Assembly: GCF_000429725.1 (NCBI RefSeq)
Contig: NZ_AUCK01000033.1
Coordinates: 1 to 44,362 of the forward strand
DNA from: Alkalicoccus chagannorensis DSM 18086
GTDB taxonomy: Bacteria; Bacillota; Bacilli; Bacillales; Salisediminibacteriaceae
Direction of reading: 5' to 3'
DNA: 44,362 nucleotides
Below the pieces are notes generated by a model, which did no database searches, had not been told where the DNA came from, and saw only the letters and a program-made list of their open reading frames with translations. A program made the translations under genes and the position numbers. Positions 24,971-27,854 of the stretch are shown here, piece after piece; the first letter of the stretch is position 1, and each line of letters starts with the position of its first letter.

Positions 24971-24996
24971 AGACGTATGAAGGAGGTGTCGCTTCT

Positions 24997-25584
24997 ATGG
25001 CAGTGAAAACAATAACGATGGGACTTGGTTGATTCTGGGGACCTGACGGCCGGTACGGCCGTGAAAAAGGAGTCATCCGAACGACAGCCGGGTACGCAGG
25101 AGGAACAACCTCCAATCCGGTCTACAAGCGTATGGGGGACCACACCGAGTGTCTGGAAGTAGAATACGAGTCCGAGATCATCCGTCTGGAAGCATTGCTT
25201 GACTTGTTCTGGGAGCAGCACAGCGGAAAGAATCACCCGATCCGGGGAAATCAGTATGCGTCCCTGCTTTTGTACAGCGATGAAATGGAAAAGCAGATCA
25301 TGGAAGAGAAAAAAAGCGAATGGGAAGAGAAAAAAGGGCATCCGATTGATACGAGAATCGAACCTTTTTCCGGCTTTACAACCGCCGAAGATTATCATCA
25401 GAAATATATGCTGAAGCGGCACAAACGTGCAATGAAGCCGATATATCTGGAAATGAATGAGAGCGACGTTCGAGATTCCACGCTTTGTGCACGGCTGAAT
25501 GCTCTGGCAGGGGGCTGGATGTCAATGCAGGAGATCAAAGAAGAATTTCCGTCTGAAAAACTGCTGGGGCAGATCAGGTGGTAG
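24997..25584 (+). CDS. msrA: Peptide-methionine (S)-S-oxide reductase with in-frame TGA at the catalytic Cys: predicted selenoprotein MsrA
   Basis: ATG 24997, with AAGGAGGTG upstream, opens MAVKTITMGLG, then TGA at 25030-25032, then FWGPDGRYGREKGVIRTTAG in the same frame. The frame runs on uninterrupted to TAG 25582-25584. MsrA enzymes have GCFWG at this spot, and its Cys attacks methionine sulfoxide; TGA replaces exactly that codon (residue 12). The rest of the family pattern is complete: TAGYAGGTTSNPVYKRMGDH, LLDLFWEQH, GNQYASLLLY and TAEDYHQKYML. I therefore read TGA as selenocysteine, giving 195 residues. A stem-loop follows the TGA (next entry). Two ordinary cysteines (ECLEVEY, STLCARL) could help recycling. 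The alternative is a nonsense mutation of a dead gene. selA/B/C/D are not in the window. Confidence 0.8.
25030..25075 (+). promoter_or_regulatory. Candidate bacterial SECIS downstream of the msrA TGA
   Basis: ACGGCC (25046-25051) and GGCCGT (25057-25062) form a perfect 6-bp stem capped by GGUAC. The loop starts 20 bases after the TGA (25032), inside the usual 16-37 base distance for bacterial selenocysteine insertion elements, and begins with G-G-U as SelB-binding loops usually do. CCT (25042-25044) and AGG (25068-25070) could extend it below an internal loop. The hairpin also encodes conserved protein, so its sequence is under double constraint. Confidence 0.6.
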
Positions 25585-25604: not shown

Positions 25605-27854
25605 ATGACGGATCAGGAAACGGAACACGAACTGCCGCAGGTGAAGCGGCGGCCGCTGCAGCAGTTCGCAGCTTGGTGGCAGGAACGTTTTATAAAAATT
25701 CCTGCATGGGATAGAGGTCTGGAAGGTGTTGCTGCGGCCATGATACTCGCTGGCTTTGCCGCAGCATGGATTGGAGCTCTCTCCAATCCGACAGGTCTCG
25801 GGACTTTTCTGGATGTCCTTATTTATATGACCGCGAACGCGGGCATTTCCGCAGCGTTCATTTTTACCGCATCCTACTTACTGTCGTTACTCTATATACC
25901 GCTGCCACGCATCATTCTGAGCGCTTCGGCCTATACGGCTCTGCTCGTTTTTTACATACAGGATGAAGCGGGTTTCGGGGTGTTTTTTACGACGGTCATG
26001 ACGGGCGTGTTTATCATCAGCGCCTATATGCTGGGAGCGGTATTTCATCTGGCGGTCAGTCGGATGGTGTTGTGGAAACGGCTGGCTGCCGCAGCTATTC
26101 CCGTTTTCTGGTTCATTCTGCTTTTTGCTTATCATCCGACGATTGCAGAGCATAACAGCGGACATGAGCTGAACGAAGACGACTACATTACTCCGCTTTC
26201 GGCGGAAGATCCCGGTGCGACAGGTCCTTATGAAGTAGAAACAGTCTATTATGGCAGCGGAGAAGACCTGCACCGTGATCACTTCGCTGACGAAACCGAT
26301 ATTACTTCCACCTCCGTCAACGCGTCCCATCTTTTTGGAGAGGGAGAGTGGGAAGGATGGCGTACCGAGTATTGGGGTTTTACGGATGAAAACCTGCCTT
26401 TGAACGGAGAAATGTGGCTTCCTGAGACAGAAGGTCCCTTCCCCGTCGTTCTGATAACACACGGGAATCACCGAATGGAGAGCTTTTCAGACGATGGCTA
26501 TGCCTATCTCGGAGAGCACCTGGCCTCGCACGGGTACGCGGCCGTGTCGATTGATCAGAATTTCATCAACTATTCCAACTGGACCGGCAGTCCAAATGAG
26601 AACATGAAACTGCGGGCGTGGCTCTTTATGCAGCATCTCCTTGAACTGGAACGCTACAGCGAAGATGAGAACCATCCGCTTGCAGGCAGTTTAGATTTAA
26701 CGAGTGCTGCACTTATCGGCCACTCGAGGGGCGGTCAGGCGGCAGCGATGGTACCGGACTATGAACGGTTCTTCCAGGACGATCCTACGCTGGAAGGGAT
26801 GGAGAACATCGATGCGAGCCGTGTCATCGGCCTGGCACCGACGGACCAGGAAGTCGATGATATGCGACCGGCACCAGAGAACATTGATTATCTGACCCTT
26901 CACGGAGCAAGGGATGGAGACGTCCACAACTTCCGTGGTGACCGGCAGTTCAGCCGCATTTCCCTGGAGCCGGACAGCGGACGCCTTCTCTCTTCTATTT
27001 ACATTGCCGATGCGAATCACAGTCAGTTCAATACTTCTTGGGGGCGTGCAGATATGAGTATGCCCGGTGATATGTTTTTGAGCCGGGAGCAGATGATGGC
27101 ACCGGAAGACCAGCAGCGGTTGACGAATGTGCTGGTGACAGCATTTCTGGAGACGACGCTGCGAGGAGAAACGGCGTATCTGCCTCTTTTTGAAGATATC
27201 AGACATGGAGAAGAGTGGCTTCCTTCATCCACCTATGTGCATCGGTTCAAAACGAGCAGCTACAGTCCGCTCGTGACGTTTAACCGCTCGAATGAAAAAG
27301 AAACGTTTCCGGAAGGGGTAACTGCTGAAGGAGAAGGGTTTACCGAATGGGAAAAAGCGTCTACGGTCGACAGGGCCGGGAATCGAAAGGCGCCGGATGG
27401 TGTGCTGATGGAATGGGAGGACGAAGGCACCTATACGCTGCAGCTTCCTGAGAATTATGCGTCTTCCTACTTTGAGGAAGACGTAGAGGCCTTTTCGTTT
27501 ACTCTGGCCCAGCTGGATCATCTTCTTCCCGAACCGGCACAAGGAGATACGACCCCTTCTCTGGAACTTGAATTTACGTTTCGGGACGGTGGATCCGAGC
27601 AGGTGGATATCAACAGCATGTATGAAATACCTGAAGCAGTATGGACCCAGTTTACACGGTATCCGCAGCTGGAAGCAGAATTCCGGGAAGGGAAGTACGA
27701 GAACCCGGTGGAACAAATCTACCAGACGATGCTGGTCCCCGTATCTCTCTTTGACGACGAAGTGGATATGCAGAACCTGGAGTCCATTTCGTGGAACTGG
27801 GGCAGCGGCCCCGGCAGGATTATGATGGACGATATTGGTTTTGAGCGGCCTTAG
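25605..27854 (+). CDS. Membrane-anchored alpha/beta hydrolase (749 aa)
   Basis: N-terminal part (about 40-185) has five to six membrane helices, with LEGVAAAMILAGFAAAWIGA first. A large extracytoplasmic region follows with an alpha/beta hydrolase fold: LNGEMWLPETEGPFPVVLITHGNHR, SHGYAAVSIDQNF, and the nucleophile elbow IGHSRGGQAA (Ser374), then LTLHGARDGDV and IADANHSQFN, which carry plausible Asp and His partners. About 200 acidic residues after the hydrolase domain look like a beta-rich accessory domain. It resembles PET-hydrolase/dienelactone-type esterases in order of motifs, but the substrate is unknown. It begins 21 bp after msrA (GAAGGAGGAG site), so the two are probably cotranscribed. 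Confidence 0.8.
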   Translation: MTDQETEHELPQVKRRPLQQFAAWWQERFIKIPAWDRGLEGVAAAMILAGFAAAWIGALSNPTGLGTFLDVLIYMTANAGISAAFIFTASYLLSLLYIPLPRIILSASAYTALLVFYIQDEAGFGVFFTTVMTGVFIISAYMLGAVFHLAVSRMVLWKRLAAAAIPVFWFILLFAYHPTIAEHNSGHELNEDDYITPLSAEDPGATGPYEVETVYYGSGEDLHRDHFADETDITSTSVNASHLFGEGEWEGWRTEYWGFTDENLPLNGEMWLPETEGPFPVVLITHGNHRMESFSDDGYAYLGEHLASHGYAAVSIDQNFINYSNWTGSPNENMKLRAWLFMQHLLELERYSEDENHPLAGSLDLTSAALIGHSRGGQAAAMVPDYERFFQDDPTLEGMENIDASRVIGLAPTDQEVDDMRPAPENIDYLTLHGARDGDVHNFRGDRQFSRISLEPDSGRLLSSIYIADANHSQFNTSWGRADMSMPGDMFLSREQMMAPEDQQRLTNVLVTAFLETTLRGETAYLPLFEDIRHGEEWLPSSTYVHRFKTSSYSPLVTFNRSNEKETFPEGVTAEGEGFTEWEKASTVDRAGNRKAPDGVLMEWEDEGTYTLQLPENYASSYFEEDVEAFSFTLAQLDHLLPEPAQGDTTPSLELEFTFRDGGSEQVDINSMYEIPEAVWTQFTRYPQLEAEFREGKYENPVEQIYQTMLVPVSLFDDEVDMQNLESISWNWGSGPGRIMMDDIGFERP

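Follow-up and report, generated by a model that had tools for sequence, protein, structure and literature searches.

The window analysed here, a stretch of 44,362 nucleotides from Alkalicoccus chagannorensis DSM 18086, carries an msrA gene whose product, judged from the sequence, is very probably a methionine-S-sulfoxide reductase containing selenocysteine, of the same 1-Cys, helical-domain type as the Clostridium oremlandii enzyme. A first-pass annotation had read the single in-frame TGA of this gene as selenocysteine (Sec), and this reading is supported by the sel genes of the genome, the conservation of the codon, a covarying hairpin behind it and an exchange of Sec with Cys among relatives. 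The frame, the position and conservation of the TGA, the covariation of the hairpin, the sel genes and the Sec/Cys exchange were all computed directly. Papers are cited by PMC identifier. The features of the locus are as follows.

24981..24986, + strand: ribosome-binding site AGGAGG, from the sequence.
24997..25584, + strand: msrA frame encoding 195 residues when codon 12 is taken as Sec, with TAG as the stop codon (PF01625, TIGR00401).
25030..25032, + strand: in-frame TGA in the catalytic position (G-U-FWG), predicted to encode Sec12; the same codon is TGA in 56 other distinct members at the DNA level.
25045..25063, + strand: SECIS-like mRNA hairpin with the loop GGUAC at 25052-25056 and the conserved G at 25053, from folding and covariation.
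25147..25149, + strand: codon of Glu51, the counterpart by alignment of Glu55 in the C. oremlandii enzyme.
25420..25581, + strand: predicted C-terminal helical domain, residues 142-195, with an approximate boundary placed by alignment from residue 145 of the C. oremlandii enzyme.
25605..27854, + strand: next gene, 749 amino acids, 20 nt past the msrA stop; a homologue adjoins the TGA-containing msrA in relatives.

The frame begins with ATG at 24997, ends with TAG at 25582-25584 on the + strand and contains exactly one internal stop on translation, the TGA at codon 12 (25030-25032). The coordinates, start codon, ribosome-binding site and single TGA at the catalytic codon given in the first-pass annotation were all exact, and its expectation that a conventional gene caller would start the gene late agrees with the plain list of open reading frames, which begins the gene at 25132 and gives it 150 amino acids. 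With the TGA read through, the frame matches Pfam PMSR (PF01625) over residues 5-144 (4e-36) and, narrowly, NCBIfam msrA (TIGR00401; 109.6 bits, cut-off 108.1), and the in-frame UGA stands at the redox-active Cys position of a known family, as is expected of a bacterial selenoprotein. The further claim that all later family motifs are intact holds for the C. oremlandii subfamily; it fails for canonical MsrA, from which the protein differs ahead of the conserved QY, where its sequence is both shorter and dissimilar.

A homologue of the 749-residue gene lies directly downstream of the TGA-containing msrA at 7/7 other loci of the genus and beside it at three of 19 further loci of the family (L093, L109, and L110), where the flanks cover only ∼1.5 kb. 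The protein matches Pfam Chlorophyllase at 34.8 bits (cut-off 26) and has no NCBIfam match, and its gene is probably co-transcribed with msrA. Elsewhere in the window, an Rfam group II intron match was found at 183-253 on the + strand (46.1 bits, cut-off 40).

The closest solved relative of the protein is CoMsrA, the MsrA of Clostridium (Alkaliphilus) oremlandii (PDB codes 4LWJ, 4LWK, 4LWL, 4LWM, 4U66, and 4W8C), to which it aligns at 138 bits over residues 7-185 with a 4-residue offset (U12/U16 and Glu51/Glu55). The predicted model has a mean pLDDT of 75.3, being weak in residues 131-160, and its best match in a Foldseek search was 4lwl (E 1.4e-15, TM-score 0.80 by query length, 36% identity over 201 columns); the nearest solved chains are all MsrA entries titled C. 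oremlandii, with the exception of 7c13, titled after a glutaredoxin. The C-terminal region is helical in the model, with modest confidence (pLDDT 51-82 by block). The protein is probably of the CoMsrA type, having a PMSR domain with the catalytic Glu (HxE) followed by a C-terminal helical domain. Glu51 is invariant in 26 aligned rows, and mutants of the C. oremlandii enzyme at the equivalent position (U16C/E55A and U16C/E55D) appear in PDB titles.

CoMsrA is described as a 1-Cys type enzyme whose helical domain is needed for activity, whose Sec form is 20 times faster than the Cys form and whose reductant is glutaredoxin, not thioredoxin; the other known MsrA structures are stated in the same source to be without the C-terminal helical domain (PMC4333827). 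The two proteins share the GUFWG motif, the catalytic Glu and the C-terminal helical domain and differ in host lineage and in cysteine content. Canonical Cys-containing MsrAs, comprising those of E. coli and cattle as well as the four paralogues in this genome (27-38% identity to the window protein), have the PMSR fold and GC(F/L)W in common with it but possess a catalytic Cys, another stretch before QY, and no C-terminal helical domain in known structures. Other bacterial Sec-containing MsrAs are described with Sec at the same residue, namely those with a GUFWG/H motif (PMC13188914) and the Syntrophobacter MsrA (PMC1794560).

Sec insertion, catalysis and the nature of the reductant are what we infer from these comparisons. 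SelB carrying Sec-tRNA(UCA) would bind the hairpin ∼12 nt past the UGA, and Sec12 would be inserted in place of a stop. The selenolate of Sec12 would then attack protein methionine sulfoxide and reduce it, with help from the nearby Glu51, and the resulting selenenic acid would probably be reduced by an outside glutaredoxin-like protein, by analogy with the C. oremlandii enzyme; four glutaredoxin-family frames exceed the cut-off in the genome, a count that does not bear on the choice of partner. An unlikely variant of this scheme is a Sec-containing MsrA with internal recycling, in which Cys52 forms a selenenylsulfide that thioredoxin reduces. It draws on the presence of Cys52 and Cys164 in the window protein, whereas CoMsrA is without any Cys (PMC4333827). 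A Cys right after the HxE (window 25150-25152) is present in 11 of the 54 Sec-containing members of the tree described below and in none of its seven Cys-containing members. The remaining 43 Sec-containing members lack it, however, and neither Cys52 nor Cys164 is widely conserved. Moreover, neighbouring residues on a strand usually point opposite ways, which argues against a partnership of this kind. Reduction by an outside glutaredoxin-like protein is the scheme expected here.

The genome assembly (3.52 Mb in 38 contigs, 99.92% complete) was searched for selA, selB, selD and tRNA-Sec (selC), the absence of which the first-pass annotation had named as grounds for rejecting selenocysteine, and all were present. 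SelA scored above cut-off at 401.5 bits (Pfam) and 462 bits (NCBIfam), SelB at 336.8 bits against a cut-off of 242.25 and SelD at 400.7 bits against a cut-off of 125 (both NCBIfam), and a tRNA-Sec with the anticodon TCA at 58.2 bits against a cut-off of 47. The genes selA, selB, selD and mnmH (MnmH, selenouridine) are clustered with the tRNA-Sec within one 20-kb stretch. The selD frame (L010:10747-11823, − strand) itself has one in-frame TGA, at residue 21 in the motif AGUGCK, and SelD is therefore likely to be a selenoprotein. Four of the 12 AhpC-TSA matches in the genome also contain one TGA each, in the motifs RGSWUPAC, ASWURC, GVDUTVC, and HPGUPIC (L166, L169, L170, and L171 on contigs C6, C6, C18, and C14, respectively), at what looks like a redox-active position, and these frames are probable further selenoproteins. 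MsrA, SelD and the four AhpC-TSA frames bring the probable selenoproteins of the genome to at least six. Formate dehydrogenase was considered as another and rejected, as its single match over the cut-off is without a TGA.

In the genus, the gene was found with TGA at the catalytic codon in 8/8 genomes, own included, the other seven proteins being 45-53% identical to the window protein. Across the family it is present in 27 of 35 genomes, own included (E 1e-25 or better), and all 27 have TGA at that codon, in line with the first-pass argument that the placement of the TGA is no coincidence. SelB exceeds its cut-off in 29 of the 35 family genomes, such that 26 have both MsrA and selB, three have selB only (G014, G027, and G032), one has MsrA only and five have neither (Fisher p 0.0009 for the co-occurrence of TGA-containing MsrA with selB, kinship ignored). 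The one genome with the TGA gene and without selB over the cut-off (G017) is 76% complete. In a scan of named genomes, which gave 50 loci, the best ten (L043-L052) all had TGA and the other 40 were canonical MsrAs with TGT or TGC. The ten TGA loci span five phyla, with Desulfofustis, Desulfobacterales, Planctomycetota, Anaerolineae, Gemmataceae, Verrucomicrobiales, and Acidobacteriota represented.

The mRNA hairpin occupies UGA+15 to +33, beginning ∼12 nt after the UGA, and has the loop G-GUA-C in the single-gene fold; the window gene does not form the pair that is outermost in the family (25045 with 25063). A model of bacterial SECIS elements specifies a loop of 3-9 nt, a stem of 4-16 bp, a G in the first two loop positions, a distance of 16-37 nt from the UGA and a minimum free energy (MFE) of at most -7.5 (PMC13188914). 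The window hairpin, judged by hand, conforms to this model with its 6-bp stem, 19 nt between UGA and loop, a GGUAC loop whose ends pair (N1-G-U-N-N2), and, over the 48 nt that follow the UGA, an MFE of -16.9 kcal/mol. As to the SECIS check suggested in the first-pass annotation, a SECIS-like, covarying hairpin follows the UGA.

Covariation was counted in 37 TGA-containing members, own included, placed in register without gaps and compared with 500 shuffles. Paired cells made up 89.5% of the total as compared with 77.6% in the shuffles, cells changed on both sides numbered 40 as compared with 14.6, and the covariation score was 0.410 as compared with 0.196, with 0/500 shuffles as high in each case; when the register was slid by 1-3, the covariation score reached at most 0.164. 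Two further counts in the same 37 members were no higher than in the shuffles, these being doubly changed pairs (4 against 3.6, 295/500 as high) and additional pair types (10 against 9.4, 222/500 as high). Among the 37 sequences, pair 20/30 fails in 11, 16/34 in seven, 23/27 in six, and 17/33 in five. The codon at +7, which bears the loop G, reads CAG 19 times and CGG 18 times among the 37 members, whereas elsewhere in the same genes CGG accounts for 17% of the codons for Arg and CAG for 55% of those for Gln. Since the hairpin was first spotted in single folds of the very sequences used for the count, the count is biased towards it, and 20 further TGA-containing members serve as a partly independent check. 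All 20 form 6-8 of the 8 pairs, and 19 have CAG or CGG at codon +7, the other (G135) having CAT and no loop G; in total, 56 of 57 TGA-containing members retain the loop G.

As a control for specificity, all 1635 TGAs of the window, from either strand, were examined, of which ten reach 7 pairs; five reach at least 6 pairs together with a loop GU and, of those five, only the msrA TGA has 7. The folding energy of the window gene lies only 1.6 s.d. below shuffles, with 16/200 as low. Shuffling synonymous codons over the 16 codons after the UGA gave a mean z of -1.06 (37 members), and five other sites in the genes gave values from -0.54 to +0.25 (36 or 37 members). This folding-energy signal after the UGA is weak and is absent from many single genes. 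An RNAalifold consensus of the 37 sequences, in which the UGA was paired with the loop and no pair was compensatory, was set aside in favour of the hairpin with its 40 double-changed cells.

A wider sample of the order, comprising 397 genomes in 135 genera with members counted at E 1e-60 or better, revealed the subfamily in 54 genomes and 21 genera, with 47 rows containing the TGA and seven without a stop. Read at the DNA level, the catalytic codon is TGT or TGC in the seven stop-free members, which belong to two genera of two other families and so provide, within the same subfamily, the Cys-codon relatives that the first-pass annotation had suggested looking for. SelA exceeded its cut-off in 0/7 genomes of the Cys type and in 23/23 of the TGA type that were tested (23 of 47; p 4.9e-7, Fisher, kinship ignored), three of the Cys-type genomes having a SelA match of ∼24 bits, far under the cut-off of 267.9, and selB was likewise found over its cut-off in 0/7 and 8/8 tested, respectively. 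The Cys members retain 4, 4, 7, 3, 3, 3, and 2 of the 8 hairpin pairs, and two of the seven keep the loop G. In the member with 7 pairs left (L141, G364), CGA replaces the loop-G codon, and from its sequence this hairpin is a probable SECIS remnant.

A tree was built from 61 rows (54 Sec and seven Cys), excluding three interrupted members, and the Cys rows formed one group with a support of 99/94. When nine canonical MsrAs were added as an outgroup, the outgroup branched with Sec-containing members from other phyla, whereas those of the order enclosed the Cys group (94/92, a single group in 94% of 200 bootstrap trees); the forks beside it are weak (86/53 and 80/87). Because the Cys group lies inside the Sec forms in the outgroup-rooted tree, the direction of change was likely from Sec to Cys, once in this sample, as the Sec machinery was lost and the hairpin decayed. 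Transfer could be another cause of the Cys form being common to two families. Collectively, there is a good probability that the CoMsrA-type MsrA, which occurs in many genera of the order, contained Sec ancestrally and that one lineage reverted to Cys on losing the Sec machinery, its SECIS element decaying stepwise.

These results also bear on the remaining explanations of the TGA. That it is read as Trp or Cys, by suppression or in a reassigned code, would fit a frame that is intact past the TGA and is nevertheless very improbable, since TGA terminates six of the 13 window genes checked and is therefore still a stop, tRNA-Sec and SelB are present, and the subfamily members in genomes without selA and selB carry TGC or TGT at that very codon. 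A nonsense pseudogene, in which a chance mutation to TGA fell on the catalytic codon and the remainder is decaying, can be all but discounted. There is an in-frame stop, and further stops, which the first-pass annotation had named as counter-evidence if found in decayed homologues of sister strains, were seen in three of the 57 TGA-containing members, one of them in the same genus (G004, L023; G011, L111; and G338, L146, which has a TAA besides the catalytic TGA). These early extra stops may stem from sequencing error or from decay. Against a pseudogene stand the retention of the catalytic TGA at ∼36-53% identity within the order and five other named phyla, the conserved protein downstream of it, the covarying hairpin and the coupling to selA and selB. 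A start at the in-frame ATG at 25132, as in the plain list of open reading frames, would give a 150-residue protein without the catalytic motif and is extremely improbable, as GUFWG and the first 45 residues with many invariant columns would be lost and the AGGAGG precedes 24997 instead.

The gene, read as a Sec-containing MsrA, adds another member to an enzyme type already known. Sec-containing MsrA is an established bacterial selenoprotein family (PMC9312934, PMC13188914), a Firmicute member has already been assayed (PMC4333827), structures of its Cys and Ser versions exist according to PDB titles, and a 2006 survey listed three selenoproteins in Firmicutes/Bacillales (PMC1794560). The suggestion that the gene extends the known range is weakened by that assay and by that listing. 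Among the titles listed in a literature search, no paper was seen on Sec-containing MsrA in Bacillales or as a common trait of the order. Since a plain open reading frame call starts the gene late, other genomes of the order probably contain misannotated genes of this type.

The more surprising part of the finding is the reversion. Changes from Sec to Cys in bacteria are documented mainly for FdhA and SelD (PMC13188914), which together account for two thirds of the cases surveyed in PMC1794560, where remnant SECIS-like hairpins are described in Cys homologues of FdhA and a HesB-like protein. No paper on a Sec-to-Cys reversion in MsrA was seen among the titles listed in the same literature search, and the present one is perhaps a new case, resolved unusually well. 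It amounts to a natural experiment, in which the same enzyme occurs with Sec where selA and selB are present and with Cys where they are not, and the RNA signal is present or decaying to match. These relatives provide material for testing SECIS predictors and allow one to ask what it costs an organism to swap Sec for Cys in one enzyme.
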